The notes beneath the pieces were generated by a model, which worked only from the letters and a program-made list of their open reading frames with translations, did no database searches and was not told the origin of the DNA. The position numbers and the translations under genes were made by a program. A stretch of DNA of 38,726 nt from Verrucomicrobiota bacterium (lineage in GTDB: Bacteria > Verrucomicrobiota > Verrucomicrobiia > Limisphaerales > UBA8199), in NCBI GenBank assembly GCA_029974925.1, contig JARKQH010000094.1, forward strand, positions 1-38,726, written 5' to 3'. The stretch's first letter is position 1. The number at the start of each line of letters is the position of its first letter. Below are positions 429-25,021 of the stretch, one piece after another.

Positions 429-550
429 TTAACTCAATCAGTGCCGCGGAGGATAGCCTGAAAGAGCACCGCTTTTCCCGCCTGGGCCCCGGCTTGCTCG
501 CCGGGGCGGGGTCAAGTAGGTTCTAAGCCGCAACCTATCATAATAAACTT

Positions 551-1204
551 ATGCCAGATAAAGCGAAGACGTTGGCGGCGCTGAAGGAAACCGGGGTGGT
601 GGCGGTCATCCGCGCGGACAAGGCCGAGGATTTGATGGATGTCGGGCGCGCTCTGCGCGAAGGGGGGGTGAAATTCATCGAGATTACCATGACGGTGCCC
701 GGCGCGTTGGGCGTTATCGAAAAGGCCGTCGGCGCCCTCAAACAGGAGGAAGTGTATATCGGCGCGGGCACGGTGCTCGATGCCGAAACGGCCCGCCTGG
801 CGATTCTGGCGGGGGCGGCTTACGTCGTGTCGCCGGTGTTTCGGCCCGAAGTCATCGCGGTCTGCAAACGCTATTCGGTGACCGTCATGCCGGGCGCCAT
901 GACCCCCACTGAAATCTTGAATGCGTGGGAAGCCGGAGCCGACGTGGTGAAGGTCTTCCCCGCCGGCGTCGGAGGCCCGCAATTCTTCCGCGACCTGAAA
1001 GGCCCCCTGCCGCACATTGAGATTATGCCCACCGGCATGGTCAACCGGGAAACGGCCCCCCTGTTCATCAAAGCCGGGGCCTGCGCCGTGGGCGCTGGCA
1101 GCGAACTGGTCGGCAAAGCGCTCATCGCCGCGCGGGACTTTGCCACCATCACAAAAAACGCCCGGGACTTTGTCACCCTGGTGAGAGAGGCCAGGGCCAA
1201 GTAA
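551..1204 (+). CDS. eda: 2-dehydro-3-deoxyphosphogluconate (KDPG) aldolase / KHG aldolase
   Basis: 217 residues, the normal length for class I KDPG/KHG aldolases (TIM barrel, cytosolic). These enzymes split 2-keto-3-deoxy-6-phosphogluconate into pyruvate and glyceraldehyde 3-phosphate in Entner-Doudoroff and uronate catabolism. The Schiff-base lysine is K134 in VVKVFPA. The catalytic Glu is E44 in KFIEITMTVPGAL. YIGAGTVLD, SPVFRPEV and VMPGAMTPTEIL are all in the expected order. ATG at 551 is the only sensible start. It appears to stand alone, with no edd or kdgK beside it. Several aldolases of this family act on related sugar acids (for example 2-dehydro-3-deoxy-6-phosphogalactonate), so substrate is less sure than family. 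The setting of sugar and sulfatase genes would suit uronate or galactonate breakdown. Confidence 0.93.
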   Translation: MPDKAKTLAALKETGVVAVIRADKAEDLMDVGRALREGGVKFIEITMTVPGALGVIEKAVGALKQEEVYIGAGTVLDAETARLAILAGAAYVVSPVFRPEVIAVCKRYSVTVMPGAMTPTEILNAWEAGADVVKVFPAGVGGPQFFRDLKGPLPHIEIMPTGMVNRETAPLFIKAGACAVGAGSELVGKALIAARDFATITKNARDFVTLVREARAK

Positions 1205-1228
1205 CCGGGCGTGGTGGGGAGGGAGGAA

Positions 1229-1438
1229 CTAATCCGAAAGGGGCGACCGCAACTCCCGAATGCCCCGGTCTATCAGGGTGTCCAGGGCATGCACAGCGCG
1301 CAGGGCGCTGGAAAAGTCAAAAGTTGATCCGCGCGCCGATCGCAGGCTGCTCTGAGGAAGAGAATCGGCTTGCATCCAAGCCGGCCGCTCCCGCAGCGCC
1401 TTCAGCATTTGACCGGCTATTCTGGTTTCCGCGTTCAT
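1229..1438 (-). CDS. Possible small hypothetical protein (69 aa)
   Basis: This open frame starts with ATG at 1438 and ends at 1229, in the gap between eda and nadB. The 69-residue product has no transmembrane segment and no motif I recognise. It looks helical and charged (for example QMLKALRERPAWMQ and VHALDTLIDRGIRELRS). No convincing ribosome binding site precedes the ATG. The inverted repeat at 1441-1495 lies directly upstream and could be its operator. Composition is compatible with coding, but chance open frames of this size are common at this GC content. Confidence 0.3.
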   Translation of the reverse strand: MNAETRIAGQMLKALRERPAWMQADSLPQSSLRSARGSTFDFSSALRAVHALDTLIDRGIRELRSPLSD

Positions 1439-12625: not shown

Positions 12626-15361
12626 ATGCGGTTCATGAGTGAAACGCTGGAAGTGCCCTCGGACGTGGTGCTGACGCCGCGCGGACACCTGGTTGTGGAC
12701 AACACGGCGCCTCCTTCACCCTGGCCGGAGCCGGAGGCCGGTCGGCGGGTGGCCAGGGCTTTGGCGCAATCCACAGCGCACGGTTTGCTGTGGTTGGGAA
12801 CACGCGAGCTGGACACGGTTCTGCCGCCTGCCGCAGCCTGGTGGCGCGAATTCGCGCGCCGTCTCCTCACCCAGCTCTGCCATACTCCGGAGCTTGAGCA
12901 GGCGCGGGAGATTGCGGCACTCTCCCCCCCGCCCGCGCCGGAGCTTTCGGCGCTGGCAGACACGGCGCCTTTGATGCGCGGCGGCGAGTATTTGAGCGGG
13001 GAGCTTCTCGAGCGGCTCTGGCGGGAGTTGGACGAGTGCATGCGGGAGCAGATTGCCCGCCACCCGGGGGGAGCGGGGGGGTGGCTGAAGGAAAGCCACC
13101 CCGTGTGGCGGCTGATGGGCCGCGTCACCTTCCACCTGGCCGAGAACCGAAAACACCCGACGCATCCCTTTGCTTTCCTGGCCACCTACGCCTCCCGTCT
13201 CTCCAGCCAGGCCCGCATCCAGCATCTGCCGCTGGGCCGCGCCCTTCAAGAATACGCGGGGACGGGCAACAAGCCGGCGCTGTTGAACCTTCTGGCTCCC
13301 GTCCAGAAGGCCGCGGAGCAGAGCCCGCTGATCCGCGAGTTGGTGGATACGGGCCGCATCTTCAGGCCGCTGCCCTGGACTGCTCCCGAGGCTTACCGCT
13401 TCCTTAAGGAGGCGCCGGCTTGCGAGAGTGCCGGGGTTCTGATCCGCCTTCCGGACTGGTGGAAAGGCGGACGCCCGCCGCGTCCCCGCGTGCAGGTGCG
13501 AGTGGGAGAAAATCGGCCGGCGGGCCTGGGGGCCGACGCCCTGCTGGATTTTTCGGTTGAAGCCACCCTCGAAGGCGAGCCGTTGACGGAAGCAGAGTGG
13601 CGGTCGCTGCTCGAGGCAACCGAGGGACTGGCTCTGGTGCGCGGCAAGTGGGTCGAGGTGAACCCCGAAAAGCTGCGCGAGGCCCTCGCGCATTGGCGCA
13701 AGGTGGAGGAAATGGCCCGGCAGAATGGAATGACCTTTTTTGAAGGGATGCGGCTCCTGAGCGGTTTCCAGATGAAGGAACCCGCAGATGGCGCAGGGAC
13801 GACTCCGCTGTTGGAGCGGGAGTGGACGGGCGTCAAGCCCGGGCGCTGGCTGGAAGCGACCCTGGCGGAGTTGCGCAACCCGGCGCGGCTCGAAACGGCC
13901 GCGGCCATTCCCGGACTCCAGGCGCACCTTCGGCCCTATCAAGCCGCGGGGGTTAACTGGCTCTGGTTCCTCGCCCGTCTTGGCCTCGGCGGGTGCCTGG
14001 CCGACGATATGGGGTTGGGAAAGACCCTGCAGATTCTGGCCCTGTTGCTCCAACGCAAGCAGGAAGCCGGACCCGACCGGCCGCCAAGCCTCCTGGTCGT
14101 GCCCGCTTCGTTGCTCGCCAACTGGCGGGCAGAAATCGCCAAATTCACCCCGGACCTGCAATTCATCATCCTGCACCCGTCCGAAGTCGAGCATCCCGCG
14201 GCACTGGCCAACTCACCTGGCACCTATGAAGTGGACCTCGTGATTACCACCTACGGCATGCTGGGCCGGATGGAAACCTTGCGAAAGCGGTCCTGGGACC
14301 TGGCCATCCTCGACGAGGCCCAAGCCATCAAGAACGCTGAAACGCGCCAGGCTCGAGCCGTCAAGGAGCTCCAAGCCCGCGCGCGCTTCGCGTTGACCGG
14401 CACCCCGGTCGAGAACCGGGCTGCCGACTTGTGGTCCCTGTTCGACTTTCTCAACCCCGGCCTCCTGGGGACGGCAAGCGCTTTCACCCGGTTCATCCGC
14501 GACCGGATGCAAGGAGAGCAACCGGATTTTGCGCCCCTGCGCGCCCTGACCCGTCCCTACATCCTGAGACGGCTCAAGACCGACAAACGCGTGATTGCCG
14601 ATCTGCCGGATAAAACCGAGGTGCGGGCCTGGTGCGCCTTAACCAAAGCGCAGGCGGCGTTGTATCAAAAAGCGGTGGCCGAGCTGGCGGAAGCCCTGGG
14701 GGCGGCCGAGGGCATCCAGCGCAAAGGCCTGGTTCTGGCGTTTATCCTGCGCTTCAAACAAATCTGTAATCACCCTTCACAATGGCTGAACGATGGCGGC
14801 TACGAGGAGCCAGCCAGCGGCAAGTTCGCCCGCTTGCGGGAGCTGGCCGCCGAAATCGCCGAGCGCCAGGAAAAGGCGCTGGTCTTCACCCAATTCCGCG
14901 AGATCACGGCCCCGCTGTCCTCCTTTCTGCAGCAAGTCTTTGGCCGTCCGGGTTTGGTCCTGCACGGTGGAACCCCCGTGGGCCAGCGGCGCAACCTCGT
15001 CGAGTCGTTCCAGCAGGAGGATGGCCCGCCTTTCTTTGTTCTGACCGTCAAGGCTGGCGGCGCCGGGTTGAACCTCACCCAAGCGGCTCACGTCATCCAT
15101 TTCGACCGCTGGTGGAATCCGGCGGTGGAAAACCAGGCAACCGATCGCGCCTTCCGGATTGGCCAGAAGCAGAACGTGTTGGTCCACAAATTCGTCTGTC
15201 GCGGCACCATCGAGGAGCGCATTGACCGGATGATTGAGGACAAGAAAGCGCTGGCGACCGGCCTTTTGGAGGGCGGCGCGGAAAAACTGATTACCGAAAT
15301 GAACAACGACGAGCTGTTGCGCTTTGTTGCGCTTGATCTGCACCGTGCTACGGCCGCATGA
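12626..15361 (+). CDS. SNF2-family DNA-dependent ATPase/helicase-like protein
   Basis: 911 residues from ATG 12626; ATG 12635 is an equally good start, and a TTG at 12599 is possible. The N-terminal half resembles the bacterial SNF2-associated region (DUF3670 type), including FFEGMRLLSGFQ. The ATPase core follows: motif I DDMGLGKT at about residues 459-466, motif II DEAQ at about 563, motif III LTGTPVENRAADLWSLFDF, then QFREI, LHGGTP and the motifs V-VI segment KAGGAGLNLTQAAHVIHFD with ATDRAFRIGQ. All key catalytic residues are present, so it should be an active dsDNA translocase of the HepA/RapA/SNF2 group. The stop codon overlaps the start of the SWIM-finger gene by four bases (ATGA), implying translational coupling and a joint role, perhaps in chromosome maintenance, transcription recycling or repair. 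Confidence 0.93.
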   Translation: MRFMSETLEVPSDVVLTPRGHLVVDNTAPPSPWPEPEAGRRVARALAQSTAHGLLWLGTRELDTVLPPAAAWWREFARRLLTQLCHTPELEQAREIAALSPPPAPELSALADTAPLMRGGEYLSGELLERLWRELDECMREQIARHPGGAGGWLKESHPVWRLMGRVTFHLAENRKHPTHPFAFLATYASRLSSQARIQHLPLGRALQEYAGTGNKPALLNLLAPVQKAAEQSPLIRELVDTGRIFRPLPWTAPEAYRFLKEAPACESAGVLIRLPDWWKGGRPPRPRVQVRVGENRPAGLGADALLDFSVEATLEGEPLTEAEWRSLLEATEGLALVRGKWVEVNPEKLREALAHWRKVEEMARQNGMTFFEGMRLLSGFQMKEPADGAGTTPLLEREWTGVKPGRWLEATLAELRNPARLETAAAIPGLQAHLRPYQAAGVNWLWFLARLGLGGCLADDMGLGKTLQILALLLQRKQEAGPDRPPSLLVVPASLLANWRAEIAKFTPDLQFIILHPSEVEHPAALANSPGTYEVDLVITTYGMLGRMETLRKRSWDLAILDEAQAIKNAETRQARAVKELQARARFALTGTPVENRAADLWSLFDFLNPGLLGTASAFTRFIRDRMQGEQPDFAPLRALTRPYILRRLKTDKRVIADLPDKTEVRAWCALTKAQAALYQKAVAELAEALGAAEGIQRKGLVLAFILRFKQICNHPSQWLNDGGYEEPASGKFARLRELAAEIAERQEKALVFTQFREITAPLSSFLQQVFGRPGLVLHGGTPVGQRRNLVESFQQEDGPPFFVLTVKAGGAGLNLTQAAHVIHFDRWWNPAVENQATDRAFRIGQKQNVLVHKFVCRGTIEERIDRMIEDKKALATGLLEGGAEKLITEMNNDELLRFVALDLHRATAA

Positions 15362-16359
15362 TGTGTTCACATTGCATGAGCTACCATGGCTATTACGGAT
15401 TTCGGCCTTATGTGTCCGTGGCTGAACGACAGCGGCGGGCCCAGCGTCACCTGAGCAAACTCGCCAAGAGCGGCAAGAGAATCTGTCCCATCCAGCTCGA
15501 GGGCCGCGCCATCGCGCGCAGTTTTTGGGGCCGGGCTTGGTGCGACAACCTCGAATCCTACATGGATTATTCCAACCGCCTCCCGCGAGGGCGCACGTAT
15601 GTGCGCAACGGCTCGGTGGTCCATCTGGAAATCCGCCCTGGCAAAATCGAGGCGATGGTCAGCGGTTCGGAACTCTACCGCGTCACGATTCGGATTGCCG
15701 CGGCGGCCCAGGCGAAATGGAAGCGCCTGTGCCGCGAATGCGCCGGCGGCATTGGGTCGCTGCTGGAATTGCTCCAAGGCCGGTTATCGGATCAGGTCAT
15801 GGGCATCATCACCCGGAAAGAAACCGGTCTCTTTCCCGCCCCGTCGGAAATCCAGATGAACTGCTCCTGCCCCGACTGGGCGACCATGTGCAAGCACGTT
15901 GCCGCGGTGCTCTACGGGGTTGGAGCGCGCCTGGACCAGGAGCCGGAGTTGTTGTTTACGTTGCGGTCCGTCAACCAAGAGGAGCTGATTACCCGCGCCG
16001 CCGGGGTCACCGACCTGGTGGCCAATACGGCCGCCGGCCCCGAGCTGGCCGAGAGCGAAATTGGCGCCGTCTTCGGCATTGAGTTGGATGCTCAGAAACC
16101 GGCGCCCCCTCCGTCCGCCGAAGTTCCGGCGCCGCCAAAGCCCAAACAGAAGCGTCAGTCAGCGGCCCCCCGGCCCGCCCGGCTCAAGAAACGCCCCCGC
16201 AAGCGCCAGAAGCCCTCCGCCCGCCGCTCGAACCCAGCGCGTCGGGGTCCGGGTTCAAGCCCGCCCGCCGCAGCGCGTGCGAACTCAGCCAGCCCCGACA
16301 GCTCGCAGATGACCGCGCCTTCCCAGCCGTCTGCCCAAGCGCCTGCTGGGCCGCCTTGA
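15358..16359 (+). CDS. SWIM zinc-finger protein, partner of SNF2 ATPase
   Basis: 333 residues. The SWIM motif CxCx(n)CxH is complete: C169, C171, C178 and H180, in CSCPDWATMCKHVAAVLY. The N-terminal part has GFRPYVSVAERQRRAQRH and RAIARSFWGRAWCDNLESY, typical of the conserved SWIM-finger proteins (COG4279 group) that sit next to SNF2 helicases in many bacteria. SWIM domains are predicted to bind DNA or proteins. An extra CSHC occurs at residues 3-6. From about residue 245 the protein turns into a Pro/Ala/Lys/Arg tail (for example RLKKRPRKRQKPSARR) that resembles bacterial histone-H1-like tails and may bind DNA nonspecifically (inference). The start overlaps the SNF2 stop by four bases. Confidence 0.88.
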   Translation: MMCSHCMSYHGYYGFRPYVSVAERQRRAQRHLSKLAKSGKRICPIQLEGRAIARSFWGRAWCDNLESYMDYSNRLPRGRTYVRNGSVVHLEIRPGKIEAMVSGSELYRVTIRIAAAAQAKWKRLCRECAGGIGSLLELLQGRLSDQVMGIITRKETGLFPAPSEIQMNCSCPDWATMCKHVAAVLYGVGARLDQEPELLFTLRSVNQEELITRAAGVTDLVANTAAGPELAESEIGAVFGIELDAQKPAPPPSAEVPAPPKPKQKRQSAAPRPARLKKRPRKRQKPSARRSNPARRGPGSSPPAAARANSASPDSSQMTAPSQPSAQAPAGPP

Positions 16360-16408: not shown

Positions 16409-16660
16409 CTACGGGGAAACGGGCTGACTCGGTGTCCGCCCGGCATTCGCCGCCCCAACGGGCGGGGCATTGGTGATTCCGGATTGTTCCGCCAGGCGCC
16501 GCTGTTGCTTCTGTTCAATCAAGCGGACCTCGCGGGTGAGATAATAAAGCGCCCGCGCATTCCCGGCCAAAAACATCAACACCAGGGCGATCAGGATGAG
16601 GACCACCAGCACCGCCATGCCGCGTCGCCGTTCACAACCGATATTTCGAGACAATCTCAT
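16409..16660 (-). CDS. PilX/GspK-like N-terminal membrane mini-protein
   Basis: 83 residues. The leader MRLSRNIGCERRRG is followed by MAVLVVLILIALVLMFLAGN, one hydrophobic helix. A basic leader ending in Gly before a hydrophobic helix without Glu at +5 is the pattern of PilX/GspK minor pilins. Here it is cut down to the helix plus a charged segment (LTREVRLIEQKQQRRLAEQ) and a Pro-rich end. Start choice: ATG 16660 overlaps the stop of the preceding pseudopilin gene by four bases (ATGA); the frame is open further upstream, but that part lies over the pseudopilin gene. It is the last gene of the five-gene GspF/pseudopilin operon. It could be a tip-initiating minor pilin or just a small membrane accessory. 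Confidence 0.65.
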   Translation of the reverse strand: MRLSRNIGCERRRGMAVLVVLILIALVLMFLAGNARALYYLTREVRLIEQKQQRRLAEQSGITNAPPVGAANAGRTPSQPVSP

Positions 16661-17184
16661 GGGGTTGGCAAAGGTTGGGGCACCGCCAGAAAGGTCAACA
16701 ACGGCCGAAACCGGCCGGGCACGTCTTTGCCCTTGGCCCGCGGCTGCAACTCGAGTTCCCACCGCCAGGCCGTCACCGTTGAACGCCGGTCAGGTTCCAT
16801 CTTCGAGGCTTTGACCTGGTCCAGGAGCTTTACCCACGGCCCGGCTCCCACGCGACGGTACAGACACCCCGCCTCCTGACGGTACTCGACCGTTCCCGCT
16901 GCTGTGCGCAGAACCAGCACCGGCCCGTCCCCGCGCTCCTCCCGCGTCACTCCCTGGGCCGCCGCGCGGACATCCGCCCGCCACCGTTCTCCGGCCTGGA
17001 GCGCCGCCGCCAGGTTCTGTGAGTTGTGGCGCAACGCGATCGAATGGTCCATGCAGCGATACAGGGCAAGATAACCCGCGCCGAGCAGTACGAAGACCAC
17101 CGCGATGTATGCCAGGGCCTCGACCAGGAGATAACCTCCGTCACGGCCCTCCGCACTGGATTGGCCAGCCCGCCGCGTTCTCAT
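16657..17184 (-). CDS. Type II secretion/type IV pilus-like pseudopilin (GspJ-like)
   Basis: 175 residues from ATG 17184. The leader ends RDGG17 and the pilin helix begins YLLVEALAYIAVVFVLLGAG, with Glu at +5 (E22). The soluble part (RHNSQNLAAALQAGERWRAD, later VLVLRTAAGTVEYRQEAGCL and RRVGAGPWVKLLDQV) has the general pattern of GspJ/GspH-type minor pseudopilins. A longer open frame reaching 17355 overlaps the neighbouring pilin gene and lacks leader features, so ATG 17184 is preferred. It overlaps the upstream pseudopilin stop by four bases and the downstream mini-protein start by four bases, so translation is probably coupled. Confidence 0.75.
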   Translation of the reverse strand: MRTRRAGQSSAEGRDGGYLLVEALAYIAVVFVLLGAGYLALYRCMDHSIALRHNSQNLAAALQAGERWRADVRAAAQGVTREERGDGPVLVLRTAAGTVEYRQEAGCLYRRVGAGPWVKLLDQVKASKMEPDRRSTVTAWRWELELQPRAKGKDVPGRFRPLLTFLAVPQPLPTP

Positions 17185-17561
17185 CGCACCCCCACCTCCC
17201 GCACGACGGGACCGCCGTGCCCTTTGACCGCCGGTTGCCACGCCAGCCGCACCCGGTTCGACACCACCACGAGTTGAAACTCCCCTGGTGGCAGGTTGGT
17301 CGCGCTGGCGGCGCGCACGAGATAGCGATGGGTTCCGGGTGCATACGCCCGCCACTCGCCCGCGGCCAGCACCTCGAGCTCGCCATCCACGATTTCCACC
17401 GCCAGCGCGCGCTGGTAGATGGTGCGGGCCAGGCGCTTTTCGGCGGCCAGGTGATAGGCCAGCGGGAGCAGCGCCCCAAGCAGCAACGCCAGCGCCGCCA
17501 GCAGATCAATCATCAGCGCGCCTTGCCGCCGCGCGTTGGAATGGGAGCCTCGGATTACCAT
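17181..17561 (-). CDS. Pseudopilin-like protein with Asp at +5
   Basis: 126 residues from ATG 17561. The leader SNARRQG14 is followed by ALMIDLLAALALLLGALLPL. The register and Gly before the cut match a prepilin, but the residue at +5 is Asp19 in place of Glu. In type IV filaments the +5 acid normally pairs with the N-terminal amine of the neighbouring subunit, so Asp may still serve. The remaining roughly 90 residues (TIYQRALAVEIVDGELEVLA, YAPGTHRYLVRAA, FQLVVVSNRVRLAW) are beta-rich, as in GspI/GspJ-like pilins. The start lies inside the end of the upstream GspF gene (7-base overlap). A longer open frame in the same phase running to 18728 is antigenic shadow of that GspF gene and was discarded. 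Confidence 0.65.
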   Translation of the reverse strand: MVIRGSHSNARRQGALMIDLLAALALLLGALLPLAYHLAAEKRLARTIYQRALAVEIVDGELEVLAAGEWRAYAPGTHRYLVRAASATNLPPGEFQLVVVSNRVRLAWQPAVKGHGGPVVREVGVR

Positions 17562-18751
17562 ACACTTGCCGCGTTGATAAGCTGGATGAGCGCCAAAAAC
17601 AGCCCGATAACAATTCCCGCCACTACAAGGCCATTGAACAGGACCAACACGGTCGTCGTGACCTGGGCCGCAGTCTGCTCCAACTGAAACGCCCGTGCGT
17701 CCAGCGCCTCGTGCCAGCCGGCCAGACTGCGGGCAAAACTCCCGGGCCGACGCAGCGCATTGCTCAATCGCCAGTGCAGTGGCCCCGCGTCGTCCATGGC
17801 GCGCAGCGCCTCGGGCAAACGGGTTCCCTCCCGCAGCAGCGTTTGAACCCGCCGGGCCCGCCGTTGCACGCAGCGGTTGGCCGTCGCTTCCGCCGCCAGC
17901 CGCACCGCCTCGACCTCCGGCACCTCCGCATCCAGCAACGCCGCCAGCACCGCCGAAAAATCCCGCTGCAACCGTTTGCGTCGCCAGGGCAGGGTGAAGA
18001 CCAGCGCATCCGGCAGCCCGGGCGCCACCCGCTGGACCCACTGAGCCACGCGCGGCCCGCCCACATAGGCCACCATCGCCAGGTAAAGCACCGCCAGAAT
18101 CGTCACCTGCGCGGCAATCACGAACGAGTCCGTGGCGAAAACCAGCCGCGTCAAAGCCGGCAGCGACATGCCCTCGGTCATGGACATGAAGACCTCCCGG
18201 TAAACCGGCAGCACCCGGTATTTGAGCAGCAGCGGAATCACCGTGGCAAACGGCGTCACCACAAACGCCAGCACGACCAGGTAGTTGACCGCGCCCCGCA
18301 CGTTGGACACTCCGTCGTTCAACAGCCAGCGGCACGCGGGCATGACCTTGCCAACATCGCCCAGGTGTTCGCCCGCCCGGAGCATGGCTTGAAGCTGGGG
18401 CGGCAGCAGCCGCGGCACCTGGTCCAGCGCCTGCCCCAGCCGAAGCCCCCGCTCCAGAAACGCCGCCAGCAAATGAAACCGCGCCCCCAGCGCCCGGTCC
18501 CGGCTCGAGGCCGCCTCGACCACGGCCGCCTCCGGTGTTCGTCCCTCCTTCAACCCCAACTCCAGCAGGTCCAGAAACAAGCGCGCGCGCTCGTTTCGGC
18601 GCAGCGGCAGGGTCAGCAGAAAATAGAGCAGGTAGATGAAGCCGGCCAGCGGCGCCAGACCCAGCGCCACATAGATGAGGAATGCCACCCCCGCCCCGCC
18701 CACCAGGTCTATCGGCCCCTGGTTCCACTGCTGGACAAGATAGTCAAACAT
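17555..18751 (-). CDS. GspF/PilC-type inner-membrane platform protein (second copy)
   Basis: 398 residues. It has the two-repeat GspF architecture: an N-terminal membrane pair (GVAFLIYVALGLAPLAGFIY), a cytoplasmic helical domain with LFLDLLELGLKEGRTPEAAV and LRAGEHLGDVGKVM, two central hydrophobic segments, a second cytoplasmic repeat (FSAVLAALLDAEVPEVEAVR) and a C-terminal membrane segment LNGLVVAGIVIGLFLALIQL-like near residues 370-390. GspF/PilC proteins link the assembly ATPase to the pseudopilin filament in the inner membrane. It lies nine bases after the first GspF-like gene and overlaps the next gene by seven bases. An extra N-terminal hydrophobic segment makes it longer than the first copy. 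The partner ATPase (GspE/PilB) is not in the window. Confidence 0.82.
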   Translation of the reverse strand: MFDYLVQQWNQGPIDLVGGAGVAFLIYVALGLAPLAGFIYLLYFLLTLPLRRNERARLFLDLLELGLKEGRTPEAAVVEAASSRDRALGARFHLLAAFLERGLRLGQALDQVPRLLPPQLQAMLRAGEHLGDVGKVMPACRWLLNDGVSNVRGAVNYLVVLAFVVTPFATVIPLLLKYRVLPVYREVFMSMTEGMSLPALTRLVFATDSFVIAAQVTILAVLYLAMVAYVGGPRVAQWVQRVAPGLPDALVFTLPWRRKRLQRDFSAVLAALLDAEVPEVEAVRLAAEATANRCVQRRARRVQTLLREGTRLPEALRAMDDAGPLHWRLSNALRRPGSFARSLAGWHEALDARAFQLEQTAAQVTTTVLVLFNGLVVAGIVIGLFLALIQLINAASVW

Positions 18752-18760
18752 GGGATGGCC

Positions 18761-19738
18761 TCACCCGCTGAAATCACCCAGCATCTGCATGAACCAGGTG
18801 AGCGTCCGCGCCAGCGGCACCACCTGCCAAAGGACCATTTGCCCCAGGAACAAAATCGAAAGCGGCAGCGCCGCATACAGGGCCAGGTCGGCGCGATACT
18901 GGGCGCGCGCCTGGTAAATCCCGGCCGCTTTTTGAAACGCCTCCGCCGGATGCTCGCCCCCCCGTTGCACCAGCCAGACGAACAACGCCGGGAAGGGACG
19001 CTGCGCCTGCCATTGCACCGGCTTGCCGCGGCCGGCTTCAACCGCAGCCCGCCATTCGCCCAGGACTTTGCCGGCCGGGCCTCCGCTTTCGAGCGCTTCG
19101 GCCAGCGCCAGCGCCTCCGCCAGCGGCAGCCCGTTGCGCAGCATCATCGCCAGCGCCGAGGCCAGTTGCGCCAAACTCGCCTCCCGAAAAGCCGGCAATC
19201 GCCACCGCAACCGCGCCCGCCACGCGGGCACTCCCAAAGCCGCCCCGGCCAGCGCCAGGGCAACGGCAAATAAAATCGGCGGAAACCACACGCTCAGGAG
19301 CAAGGCCGCCGGAACGGGGCCGACCTGGTCCATGAAGTTCGACAGGAACCGCCCGATCAGGCCCGAAAGCAACATCGTCAGGCCCAGCGACACCGCAATG
19401 ACCAGCACCGGATAGACCATCAGCCCCTTCAAGCGGGTCCAAAGCGAGTTGACCCGTTGATAGTGGTCCGCCAGCAGCGTGAGCATCCCCGGCAGGTCGT
19501 TGCTGCGAACGCCGATTTGAATCATGCGACGATACAACTCGGGCAGTGCCCGGCGCTCAATCGCCTCCGGCAGGGGCGTCCCCCGGGCCAGGTCGGCCCC
19601 GAGTTGCTCCAGCTCCGCTTTCAGCTTCCGGTCGCGCATCCCCGCCGACAACTGTTTGAGCCCCCCTTCCAGCGGGATGCCCTCCCGCAGCATCCCCGCC
19701 AGTTGGTGGTTGAAAAAGGCAAACTCGTCGTGATTCAT
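18761..19738 (-). CDS. GspF/PilC-type inner-membrane platform protein (first copy)
   Basis: 325 residues, somewhat short for GspF (about 400). The N-terminal repeat begins at once with FAFFNHQLAGMLREGIPLEG, the typical F-x-x-QLAxMLxxGIPL start of a T2SSF repeat, and continues with LADHYQRVNSLWTRLKGLMV. Two membrane segments follow (YPVLVIAVSLGLTMLLSGLI and LLLSVWFPPILFAVALALAG), then a second repeat (LAQLASALAMMLRNGLPLAE) and a last hydrophobic segment (ALPLSILFLGQMVLWQVVPL). The roughly 60 residues that precede the first repeat in classic GspF are absent. It is first in the five-gene operon. Two dissimilar GspF proteins in tandem imply a heteromeric platform (inference). Confidence 0.82.
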   Translation of the reverse strand: MNHDEFAFFNHQLAGMLREGIPLEGGLKQLSAGMRDRKLKAELEQLGADLARGTPLPEAIERRALPELYRRMIQIGVRSNDLPGMLTLLADHYQRVNSLWTRLKGLMVYPVLVIAVSLGLTMLLSGLIGRFLSNFMDQVGPVPAALLLSVWFPPILFAVALALAGAALGVPAWRARLRWRLPAFREASLAQLASALAMMLRNGLPLAEALALAEALESGGPAGKVLGEWRAAVEAGRGKPVQWQAQRPFPALFVWLVQRGGEHPAEAFQKAAGIYQARAQYRADLALYAALPLSILFLGQMVLWQVVPLARTLTWFMQMLGDFSG

Positions 19739-20476: not shown

Positions 20477-23400
20477 ATGAAAATACCTCGTTTGAATTCC
20501 GTACTGGCCGGGCTGCTGTCCGCTTCGACTTGCCTCGTTGCGGTTCCCGGCGCTCGCGCCAACGATTGGGTCAACCCCGGAACTGGCGATTGGGCTGATC
20601 CCGCCAACTGGAACCCGGCGGCCGTGCCGGATGCGACGGGCGGTTGGGCGATTGGCAACGTCGCCAATGGCGGCACCGCCGTCATCAGTACCGCCGTACC
20701 CGCGGTCAGCGAAGCCTGGGCGGGCAACGGTGGGGTTGCCGGCCACATCATCGTGACCAATGGCGGCACGTTGACCGTCAACAACTGGCTGGTAATGGCC
20801 CGGATGTATCAGTCCGCCAGCCCCACCCCCTTCAGCACGCTCACTATTCACAACGGCACGCTCAACAAGTCGGGTGACGGCCTGATCGTGGGCGACAATT
20901 ACGCCGGCATGTGGGGTGACGGCCAGATGACCATCGCGGGCACCGCCACCGTCAATGTCACCGGCGGATGGTGGGGGATCGGCAACGGCGCCAGCAGCCG
21001 CGGCACCGTCTATATCAAGGACAACGCGGTCGTCAACGCCGCGGGCTACGACTTCAACGTGGGCGACTACGGCTCCGGCGCCGGCGTCTGTTACATCAGC
21101 GACAATGCCAGGCTGAATGTCTCGCGGTTCTGGATCGGCAAGTCCGATACCGTCGCCGGCGCCCTGTGGCAGACGGGCGGCGCCATCAATGGCATTGAAC
21201 CGAATGCGAACGAATGGACGATCGGTGGTGACGGGAGCGCGCACATTGACGCCATCGGGTTCTATCACCTCTCCGCCGGTTCACTGACCTGCCCATTCAA
21301 TTTCCAAGTCGGACGCTATGGCATTGGACTGCTGTATCAGACCGGCGGCACCATCACCCAATCCGGCTGGTCGGATTTCGCCCGCTATCCGACGGGGCGC
21401 GGCATCGGCTGGCTCCGGGGCGGCACCTTTACTCATAACGGCACCGGCACTCACCAGATGGTTGGCGAGCAGGGCCGTGGCGAACTGACCATCGAGGGCA
21501 CGGCCGTGCTCGAAACCACCATCAGCCTCTGGGTCGGTCAGATGGCCACCGCCACCGGCTTCCTGAACCTGAACGGCGGCACCGTTCGCGTGCCCAAGCT
21601 GGAACGGCTCAGCGGCCTCGGCTATCTCAGCTTCAACGGCGGCGTGCTCCAGGCCAAGGCCAGCGATCCCGCCTTCCTCGGCGGTTTTACCGACGCCCGG
21701 GTTTATGCCGGCAACGCAATCTTTGACACCGCCGGCTACAACATTGGCGTGAGCCAGCCGCTGCTCGCCCCCACCGGCTCGGGGGTCGTCAGCATCGCCA
21801 TCAGCAGCCCTGGGTCCGGTTATGTGGCCGCGCCCGCCGTGGAAATCACCGGCGACGGCTTCGGCGCGCTCGCCGTGGCGGAAATTGACCGGTTTGCCGG
21901 CACGGTAACCAACATTGTGATTACTTGCCCCGGCCGCGATTACACCTGGGCCACCGCCTCCCTGATCAGCGGCGCCAACAGCCTCGTGGTCCCCGCCAGC
22001 CTCGACATGCCGGTCCTCGGCACGTTTGCCTCGGGCGGCGTGATCAAGAACGGCGCCGGCACCCTGACGCTTTCCGGCGCAAACACCTACTCTGGAGCAA
22101 CCGTCGTCAATGCCGGCGCGCTGGAGACCACCACCGCTTCGACCGGCGGCGGCGCTTACACGCTGGCTGACGGCACCCGCTTCGCCCTCCAGGTGGTGAC
22201 CGATGAAGGTCAGCTCACCGCCAGCAGCCTGACCTTGGGCTCGAGCACCGGCATGACCCTGGACCTCGACCTCGGCAACTTCGGCAATCCGACCCAGGCG
22301 CCGATTCGCGTGGTCGGCGCTCTCGCCGTCAATGGCGTCATCACGATCAACATTGCCGACGCCCTGCCCCAACTGGGCAGCTTCCCGCTGATCAAGTATG
22401 GCAGCCGGAGCGGCTCGGGTAATTTTGTGCTGGGAACGCTTCCCACCGGTGTCCAGGCCACCCTGGCGACCAACGTGCCCAACAGCTCGATTGATCTGGT
22501 GATCAGCGCCGTGGCGGCTCCGCGGTGGGATGGCCAGGCGGGGGGCTTCTGGGACATCGGCCTGACGGCCAACTGGATCGAACTGAGCACGGGTTTGCCC
22601 GCCTTCTATCAGGATGGGCAGGCGGTTCTGTTCAACGACGCGGCGCAGGGAACCACCACGGTCAACCTGGTCGCCAATGTGCAGCCGGCGAGCGTGACGG
22701 TGAATAATACCAATCTGAATTACACCCTGGTTGGCACCGGCAAGATCGGCGGCGCGGGCGGTTTGACCAAACGCGGCACCGGCACCTTTACCATCGCCAA
22801 CTCGGCGGCCAACGATTACACGGGGATCACCACGATCGCCGGCGGAACCCTGGTGGTCACCAACCTGGCCAACGGCGGTCAGCCCAGTGCCATTGGCGCC
22901 GCTTCCGCCGCTCCGGAAAACCTCGTGCTCGCCGGGGGCACGCTCAGCTACGCGGGCGCGCCGGCCGCGGCCAACCGCGGCTACTCGGTTCAAGCCGCTC
23001 GCAGCGCCATTGATGCCCAGTCCAACCTGAGCTTGGGGGGTAATGTCATCGCGGGGCCTGGCACCAGCTTTGTCAAGACCGGGCCGGCCACTCTCACTTA
23101 CACCGGGACCGGCGTCAACGAACTGGCCGGCGGCGCCCAGCCCGGTTACGAAATCGTCACTGGCTCGGTGGTCTTTGACGGCTCGGCCGGCAGCCAGGTC
23201 AACAACAGCCCGCGCGATTTCTACGTCGGCAGCACTCCCAACAGCGGCGCCTCGCTCGCACTCACCAACAGCAGCCTTAACGTCGGCGAATGGCTCGCCA
23301 TTGGCCGTGGCACTGGCTCGAGTGACTACCTCTCGACGTTGACTCTTCATAATTCAGCCGTGCGTTGCGGCAACTTCTCGATGGGCTGGGACAACGGCCT

Positions 23401-25021
23401 GGCCGGGAACCTCAGCCGCCAACTCATGGTCATGACCGGCAACTCGACCCTGACCAACGCCGGCGACGTGAACATGGGTGAGAGCGGGGGCTCGACCTCG
23501 ACAATCCTTCTGAAGGATAATTCAATTTTCTTCTCGGATGGGCGCACCCATTTCGGCTGGCACAACAACGCCACGGGCATGGTGACCGTCGCCGACTCGG
23601 CTCTGATGGTGGTGGACGCCTGGCTCTCGATCGGCCATGAGGGCGGTGTGGGCACCTTCACCGTTCAGAACAACGGCAGAGTCTGGGTCCTGTGGGACCT
23701 CAACGTCACCGACGTCGGCCTCGGCGAGGGCACCTTCAATCTCAAGGACAACGGGACCGTGTCCGCCAACAACTTCTTTGTGGGCAAAGGCACTGGCAGC
23801 ACCGGCGTGTTCAACCAGACCGGCGGCACCGCCATCGGCCTCAGCAGCGGCAATGAGTACCACATTGGCTTCCACGGGCCCGGCACCTGGAACCTCAGTA
23901 ATGGCAGCATCCTGGCCCCGAACCACTGGTTCATCGTGGGGCGGTGGGCGGACGGCCCCGGCACCTTGAACGTGACCGGCGGTTCCCTCTCGCACGGCAC
24001 CAGCGATCCGGGCAAGCTGTTCCGCGTCGGCGAAGACGGCACGGGCGTAATGACCATCAGCGGCACGGGCGTGGTTGCCACCGCGTGCAATGAGGTGACC
24101 ATCGGCTGGAACGCCACCGGCAACGGCACGGTCAACCTCGACGGCGGCGTCTTCCAGGCCCGCCGCATCATCGGGGGCAGCGGCTACAGCATGTTCAACT
24201 TCAACGGCGGCGTGCTGCGCGCCGGTCCCAACGCCAACCCGAACTTCATGACGGCCCTGAGCGGCGCCACGATTTTTGACGGCGGCGCCATCATTGACAC
24301 CGGCACCAACTGGATCGCCATCAACCAGGACCTCACCGGCTCGGGCGGTTTGACCAAGCGTGGCTCGGGAGCCCTGGCCCTTAACGGCTACAACTCCTAT
24401 GTCGGCCCGACCGTTATCACCGAGGGCGGCTTCGGCGGCAACGGCACCCTCCTCGGTCCCGTCTCCGTTCAAGCAACGGCCGCCTTCTCACCGGGCACCT
24501 CGGTGGGCGCGATCACGATCAATAACACCCTGGGCTTGGCCGGCACCACCTTGATCGAAATTGACAAGGCCAATGGCACCAACGACCAGGTCCTCGGCGT
24601 CACCACCCTTACTTACGGTGGCACACTCATCCTGACCAACATAGCCGGCACGCTCGTGGCCGAGGAGACGTTCAAGATCTTCGACGCCACCACGTACCAG
24701 GGTTCGTTCACCAGCATCATCTCCGCCAACCCGGGCGTGGTCTGGGATACCAGCAGGCTGGGCGTGGACGGCACGGTCAAGGTCCTGAGCACCGTCTCAA
24801 CGACGCCAGTGAACCTGACTTACTCGCTGGGTACCGGCGGGCTGACGGTCGGCTGGCCGCTGGATCACACCGGCTGGCGGCTGCTGGCTCAGACCAATGC
24901 CATCACGGTCGGCCTCAGCAACAATTGGGTGGCGGTGCCCGGCTCCGACACGACCAACCAGGTGACCTTGCCGGTCAACCCGGCTAACGGCTCGGTGTTC
25001 CTCAGGCTGGTCTATCCGTAA
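20477..25021 (+). CDS. Giant secreted PATR-repeat surface protein (1514 aa)
   Basis: Signal peptide: MKIPRLNSVLAGLLSASTCL up to about ARA28. The body is Gly/Thr/Asn-rich beta-helix sequence. Autotransporter-associated (PATR) strands are clear: IKNGAGTLTLSGANTYSG, GLTKRGTGTFTIANSAANDY and GLTKRGSGALALNGYNSYVG. Two long modules (about residues 97-432 and 932-1290) follow the same plan and both end in FNFNGGVLRA/SFNGGVLQA followed by a 'DG/AG..IFDT' strand, so they look like an internal duplication. A GSGYVAAPAVEITGDGFG unit sits at about 450. The C-terminus is not an outer-membrane barrel but a short module ending VFLRLVYP. Such proteins are common in Verrucomicrobiota and thought to be surface exposed; the function is unknown. 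It is followed by a terminator hairpin at 25053-25082. Confidence 0.85.
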   Translation: MKIPRLNSVLAGLLSASTCLVAVPGARANDWVNPGTGDWADPANWNPAAVPDATGGWAIGNVANGGTAVISTAVPAVSEAWAGNGGVAGHIIVTNGGTLTVNNWLVMARMYQSASPTPFSTLTIHNGTLNKSGDGLIVGDNYAGMWGDGQMTIAGTATVNVTGGWWGIGNGASSRGTVYIKDNAVVNAAGYDFNVGDYGSGAGVCYISDNARLNVSRFWIGKSDTVAGALWQTGGAINGIEPNANEWTIGGDGSAHIDAIGFYHLSAGSLTCPFNFQVGRYGIGLLYQTGGTITQSGWSDFARYPTGRGIGWLRGGTFTHNGTGTHQMVGEQGRGELTIEGTAVLETTISLWVGQMATATGFLNLNGGTVRVPKLERLSGLGYLSFNGGVLQAKASDPAFLGGFTDARVYAGNAIFDTAGYNIGVSQPLLAPTGSGVVSIAISSPGSGYVAAPAVEITGDGFGALAVAEIDRFAGTVTNIVITCPGRDYTWATASLISGANSLVVPASLDMPVLGTFASGGVIKNGAGTLTLSGANTYSGATVVNAGALETTTASTGGGAYTLADGTRFALQVVTDEGQLTASSLTLGSSTGMTLDLDLGNFGNPTQAPIRVVGALAVNGVITINIADALPQLGSFPLIKYGSRSGSGNFVLGTLPTGVQATLATNVPNSSIDLVISAVAAPRWDGQAGGFWDIGLTANWIELSTGLPAFYQDGQAVLFNDAAQGTTTVNLVANVQPASVTVNNTNLNYTLVGTGKIGGAGGLTKRGTGTFTIANSAANDYTGITTIAGGTLVVTNLANGGQPSAIGAASAAPENLVLAGGTLSYAGAPAAANRGYSVQAARSAIDAQSNLSLGGNVIAGPGTSFVKTGPATLTYTGTGVNELAGGAQPGYEIVTGSVVFDGSAGSQVNNSPRDFYVGSTPNSGASLALTNSSLNVGEWLAIGRGTGSSDYLSTLTLHNSAVRCGNFSMGWDNGLAGNLSRQLMVMTGNSTLTNAGDVNMGESGGSTSTILLKDNSIFFSDGRTHFGWHNNATGMVTVADSALMVVDAWLSIGHEGGVGTFTVQNNGRVWVLWDLNVTDVGLGEGTFNLKDNGTVSANNFFVGKGTGSTGVFNQTGGTAIGLSSGNEYHIGFHGPGTWNLSNGSILAPNHWFIVGRWADGPGTLNVTGGSLSHGTSDPGKLFRVGEDGTGVMTISGTGVVATACNEVTIGWNATGNGTVNLDGGVFQARRIIGGSGYSMFNFNGGVLRAGPNANPNFMTALSGATIFDGGAIIDTGTNWIAINQDLTGSGGLTKRGSGALALNGYNSYVGPTVITEGGFGGNGTLLGPVSVQATAAFSPGTSVGAITINNTLGLAGTTLIEIDKANGTNDQVLGVTTLTYGGTLILTNIAGTLVAEETFKIFDATTYQGSFTSIISANPGVVWDTSRLGVDGTVKVLSTVSTTPVNLTYSLGTGGLTVGWPLDHTGWRLLAQTNAITVGLSNNWVAVPGSDTTNQVTLPVNPANGSVFLRLVYP

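Follow-up and report, generated by a model that had tools for sequence, protein, structure and literature searches.

Outside Tad, type IV filament (T4F) systems have a single platform protein with two domains, probably a trimer that fits the hexamer of the ATPase (PMC12019362, PMC10191384). In Tad, TadB and TadC carry one T2SSF domain each and have arisen by fission (PMC6668835, PMC10191384, PMC12019362), while the archaeal Epd pilus has two PilC paralogues, both of them essential (PMC4371748). The GspI, GspJ and GspK proteins of the T2SS form the pseudopilus tip complex (PMC6211770, PMC5131608), and a tip complex capped by a subunit without Glu5 is a general T4F feature (PMC10191384).

Like Tad/Flp (TadA, TadB, TadC) and Epd (EpdJ, EpdK), the operon described here combines one ATPase with two platform genes, and its component types are those of the T2SS tip (GspI-GspJ-GspK) with GspE and GspF, K resembling its T2SS counterpart in lacking Glu5. 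At a probability of roughly 0.65, we read these genes as most of a minimal T4F assembly machine specific to Limisphaerales, with a motor, a double platform and a tip-initiation complex, and with its shaft pilin and secretin borrowed. Since GspI-J-K form the tip complex in the T2SS, the operon is taken to encode motor, platforms and tip, and no shaft. Within the window, the whole stretch of 38,726 nucleotides that was analysed, five open reading frames run from 19738 to 16409 on the minus strand, exactly where the first-pass annotation had placed them. Its spacing values also held: gspF1 (18761..19738) and gspF2 (17555..18751) are separated by 9 bases, gspF2 overlaps the gspI-like gene (17181..17561) by 7, and the overlaps of the latter with the gspJ-like gene (16657..17184), and of gspJ with the short gspK-like gene (16409..16660), are 4 bases each.

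These five genes form the end of a conserved operon, in front of which relatives carry a short GspE-type ATPase gene. The ancestral order, gspE-gspF1-gspF2-gspI-gspJ-short gspK, was found in 68 distinct loci, all from the Verrucomicrobiota order Limisphaerales wherever named, which bears out the earlier suggestion of a lineage-specific machine; the gene order that was to be looked for in other Verrucomicrobiota does recur, but as six genes with gspE rather than five. gspE is normally gene 1 and is present in 53 of the 68 loci, compared with 65 for F1, 52 for I and 54 for J. In 51 loci it adjoins F1, the median overlap being 4 bases, and the operon junctions are −4 or −7 overlaps, mostly of the ATGA type. 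Recurrence of this order in 68 distinct loci with such overlaps argues that the arrangement is not due to chance. A small two-helix membrane protein (X) follows the operon in 20 of the loci, and an ECF sigma factor (10 loci) and a companion of ~120 aa (8 loci) are encoded upstream in some. The ECF gene lies directly upstream of gspE, mostly with the companion, in L085, L091, L096, L099, L101, L102, L106 and L140, which suggests signal-controlled expression in these relatives. Searches of open-access papers on Verrucomicrobia pseudopilins, Limisphaerales pili and two-GspF/PilC systems returned no published description, and the operon is real, conserved and apparently undescribed in this literature.

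The window contains no intact gene for an ATPase, a secretin or a major pilin. The first-pass annotation had reported this correctly, but it overlooked a relic of the local gspE 3′ end at 20015-19828 on the minus strand. The relic (188 bp) lies directly upstream of gspF1 and consists of the last ~37 gspE codons, the stop and ~70 bp beyond the stop (E=5e-53). It is 83% identical to the end of an intact, orthologous gspE on an unlinked contig of the same genome (G000:C235:9602-10705, minus strand), located in whole-genome searches run family by family. The C235 protein matches T2SSE with E=1.6e-89, scores 663 bits as against at most 268 for the other GspE/PilB proteins of the genome, and shares 74-75% identity with its nearest orthologues. 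Because the relic adjoins gspF1, the lineage formerly had the standard E-F1 junction, with a copy of E and part of the intergenic region now lying elsewhere; gspE was copied or moved to C235, and erosion of the local copy has left its 3′ relic. Contamination or an assembly break behind the split was rejected: the gspE 3′ ends differ from each other, at 83% identity, and the composition of C235 matches the rest of the host genome and is close to that of the window. The absence of the ATPase at the window locus is a local accident. The proposal of a five-gene system without an ATPase does not stand, since gspE is found in 53 of the 68 loci and has here been relocated, leaving an orthologue on C235 and a relic beside gspF1.

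The encoded protein is a short GspE/PilB/ComGA-type ATPase without an N1 domain and with conserved ATPase motifs. Across 14 homologues the catalytic motifs (GPxGSGKTTT, EDP, GE-RD, H-AGSC and the zinc cysteines) are invariant or nearly so. Family models give 305.5 bits for GspE, 233.7 of 300 bits for ComGA and 33 bits for the TadA-family model TIGR03819, which argues against a TadA-type ATPase.

E and F2 co-occur consistently, in a sample of modest size. In seven F2-carrying genomes, at least one copy of F2 has no E next to it. Six of them (the present genome, G012, G397, G333, G346 and G365) have an E orthologue elsewhere (>540 bits), which in G333 and G365 is next to a second set of platform genes. 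In the remaining genome, G387, the cluster has visibly degenerated and includes an E fragment. None of the ten F2-lacking genomes has an E orthologue (best 284 bits); in G315, first counted among them, E and F1 lie where a contig ends, and it is treated as a contig-end case. The co-occurrence that the first-pass annotation proposed to test for unlinked partners is seen for the ATPase (6/7 versus 0/10) but not for a dedicated secretin, as secretin counts do not differ between genomes with and without F2 after genome-size correction.

The F2 profile matches 111 of 293 Limisphaerales genomes (66 of the 154 of good quality), and in a 288-genome sample of the phylum it matched no other genome, detecting just the ordinary PilC/GspF background (best 85 bits). 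The E profile has the same distribution, with matches outside reaching 310 bits at most. A pattern scan of 84,980 species returned 36 loci, titled Verrucomicrobia, Limisphaerales, Pedosphaera or 'bacterium'; its degenerate patterns may miss distant relatives, so absence beyond the phylum is not implied. The patchy occurrence within the order (111 of 293 genomes) indicates that the machine is dispensable.

Both platform proteins pass the Pfam T2SSF cut-off (108.6 and 59.1 bits) and have two T2SSF stretches each, unlike TadB and TadC with their single domains. GspF1 (325 aa) has three predicted transmembrane segments and no N-terminal extension, whereas GspF2 (398 aa) has an extra N-terminal transmembrane helix that is shared by nearly all F2 members. 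Maximum-likelihood analysis places F1 (23 rows) on one side of a well-supported branch, and likewise F2 (24 rows) and ordinary PilC/GspF proteins (33 rows), with clade support of 100/99 for F1 and 100/100 for F2, in a tree with long branches that does not settle the relation among the three groups. Both are also distant from the GspF of the genome's own T2SS. On this sequence evidence, F1 and F2 are best described as anciently diverged, full two-domain platform proteins forming separate, co-conserved clades, in keeping with the earlier claim of two different GspF proteins in tandem. A need for two platforms has a precedent, as both Epd PilC paralogues are essential (PMC4371748). No TadZ, RcpA or Flp gene was recognised at the operon loci.

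The three small proteins carry class III prepilin cleavage motifs: RRQG↓ALMIDLL in the GspI-like protein (126 aa, Asp at +5), RDGG↓YLLVEAL in the GspJ-like protein (175 aa, Glu at +5) and RRRG↓MAVLVVL in the GspK-like protein (83 aa, Val at +5). Pfam has no match in the window I or J proteins, and Foldseek returned no significant PDB match for either. AF2 models of I and J (pLDDT 91 and 88) comprise an N-terminal alpha-1 helix of ~60 residues and a beta sheet, as expected of the pilin-like proteins that had been proposed. With VIA-align, the J model matches XcpW (5bw0, Z 11.6) and EpsJ (2ret, Z 11.4), the first eight rows all being GspJ or its complexes, and the predicted fold thus strongly supports J as a GspJ homologue. 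The best matches of the I model are GspI proteins (9a1f, Z 7.4; 5bw0, Z 7.3; 2ret, Z 6.8), and since Z values below 8 give moderate support, its predicted fold moderately supports a GspI homologue. The folds match XcpV/EpsI and XcpW/EpsJ of the T2SS, respectively.

The third pseudopilin had been described as a GspK-like helix, and it does match the NCBIfam GspK model (E 8.8e-6) through its N-terminal helix only, at model positions 2-52 of 307. Automatic gene calling frequently misses K, and yet a helix-only, GspK-like product is encoded in 53 of 53 loci with readable sequence after J (median length 78 aa), never with an acidic +5 residue. The GspJ homologues have Glu at +5 in 48 of 51 readable cases. 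The Asp at +5 in GspI was considered as a special feature, and the resulting mixture of +5 acids had been called unusual. This view was rejected because about half of the GspI homologues carry Asp (Asp 28, Glu 24 of 52 readable; 53 rows were scored automatically, L101 and L161 were corrected by eye, and L153 is unreadable).

Other filament-system genes lie elsewhere in the genome. Contig C286 carries a complete-looking T2SS gene set (E-F-G-H-I-J-K), C256 a PilB-PilT-PilC set, and PilMNO/secretin sets occur besides. Secretins number five and N_methyl-type pilin starts 78; the T2SS and secretins are on other contigs than the window. Prepilin peptidase is encoded at a single, unlinked locus on C26. 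Because of the complete T2SS on C286 and the recurrence of the secretin-less operon in relatives, the window operon does not represent an ordinary T2SS truncated by the choice of window, a possibility that the first-pass annotation had itself raised. The abundant FTLIELLVVIAIIAILA pseudopilins were considered as partners and rejected, as they show no co-occurrence after genome-size correction; with 8 in 680 kb, they are not enriched around the operon either.

These components make the machine a variant within the type IV filament superfamily and not a new kind of machine. The C235 orthologue is a GspE/PilB-type extension ATPase with Walker A/B, Asp and His boxes, F1 and F2 are platform proteins with T2SSF domains, I, J and K have class III prepilin motifs with a long alpha-1 helix modelled for I and J, and the genome encodes a prepilin peptidase. 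By analogy with related families, I-J-K would initiate the filament tip as in the T2SS, a GspE hexamer would drive F1 and F2, and the single peptidase on C26 would process the pilins. F1 and F2 might form one mixed platform or two alternating ones. The cell's T2SS or T4P could supply the shaft pilin and secretin; alternatively, the filament could be a short periplasmic stub. That shaft pilin, peptidase and secretin are shared is something we infer: no shaft pilin or secretin could be assigned to the machine, since neither secretin counts nor N_methyl pilin counts, the latter also compared after genome-size correction, separate F2-carrying from F2-lacking genomes.

A bolder version, which we offer tentatively as falling a little short of even odds, is that the operon defines a new T4F clade with two full two-domain platforms per hexameric ATPase, either mixed, breaking the three-platform, six-domain symmetry, or separate for extension and retraction. 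Such a machine would have only tip pseudopilins, including a helix-only GspK, and would prime the shaft pilins of other systems or form a stub. With its two full platforms and single ATPase, a conserved system of this kind raises the questions of whether a platform can be heteromeric and whether the platform sets the direction of pilus movement. The helix-only K and the absent shaft gene offer a natural test of the minimum required of a tip-initiation complex.

The genes may instead be accessory gear of the main T2SS, in which E, F1/F2 and I-J-K would act as an alternative motor, platform and tip on GspG, GspD and GspLM for other substrates. We regard this as possible but rather unlikely, and it overlaps with the preferred reading of a minimal T4F machine. 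Besides the full T2SS gene set in the same genome and the T2SS-like predicted folds of I and J, it draws support from the lack of a shaft or secretin gene at any locus. The N1 domain of the T2SS GspE binds GspL, and coupling to GspLM is not obvious for an E protein without this domain. F1 and F2 are also distant from the genome's T2SS GspF. Further differences from a T2SS are the second GspF, a K without globular domain and the absence of gspC, D, G, H, L or M from the operon; no GspD, GspC/L/M or GspG gene was found as a conserved neighbour among the 68 loci. Nor were PilMNOP, or PilT with assembly genes, as expected of a type IVa pilus, recognised in the 68 neighbourhoods.

A Com-like DNA-uptake pilus, a secretion-free minimal T4F built like ComGA-ComGB with minor pilins, appears improbable. 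The short ATPase and the 325-aa platform are near ComGA and ComGB in size, the minor pilins share an operon with motor and platform (ComGA, ComGB and ComGC-G in Com), and, in agreement with Com (PMC10191384), none of the loci has a recognised PilMNO/GspLM gene. GspI/GspJ-like pilins of Thermus, moreover, have suggested roles in competence (PMC5131608). Against this, E scores lower with the ComGA than with the GspE model, the ComGB family match is weak, a ComGC-like major pilin is absent from the operon and com genes were not found nearby. Two platforms, GspI/GspJ-type minor pilins and diderm hosts also set the operon apart from Com. Equally improbable is a decaying remnant in this genome, with local gspE lost and the remainder drifting. 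In its favour are the relic, the unlinked X gene and G387, whose truncated genes show that such decay occurs. Against it, none of the five window frames is shortened and all retain conserved motifs, while gspE on C235 is intact, its motifs invariant and its identity to the closest orthologues high.

Several observations on gene surroundings accompany the minimal-machine reading. Genes for a secretin, a major pseudopilin or PilMNO/GspLM were not recognised within ~6 kb of any operon copy. In L155 (G465:C796) the order is E F1 F2 I J K F1 F2 X, a tandem duplication in which the F1-F2 pair seems to duplicate as one unit. The decaying copy in G387 (L193, G387:C14:38000-54000) has truncated E, F1 and I, and J and K are absent. 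A further T2SS-like cluster in the present genome (G000:C334, L075:7523-11763) has one GspF and several pseudopilin-like proteins with no adjacent ATPase. The two displaced genes of this genome, X on C90 and gspE on C235, each lie directly downstream of a same-strand FTLIELL-type pseudopilin gene (G000:C90 L198:1462-1782 and 498-1424, plus strand; L072:9602-10705 and ~11531-10818, minus strand). FTLIELL-type pilins show no enrichment around the intact operon, so the arrangement could be due to chance or reflect a recombination hot spot. In the window, the gspE relic has as its divergent neighbour a gene (20477-25021, plus strand) for a 1514-aa protein with autotransporter-like beta-repeat sequence, and genes for an SNF2-type helicase and then a SWIM-motif protein (12626-16359, plus strand) converge on the pilin operon.
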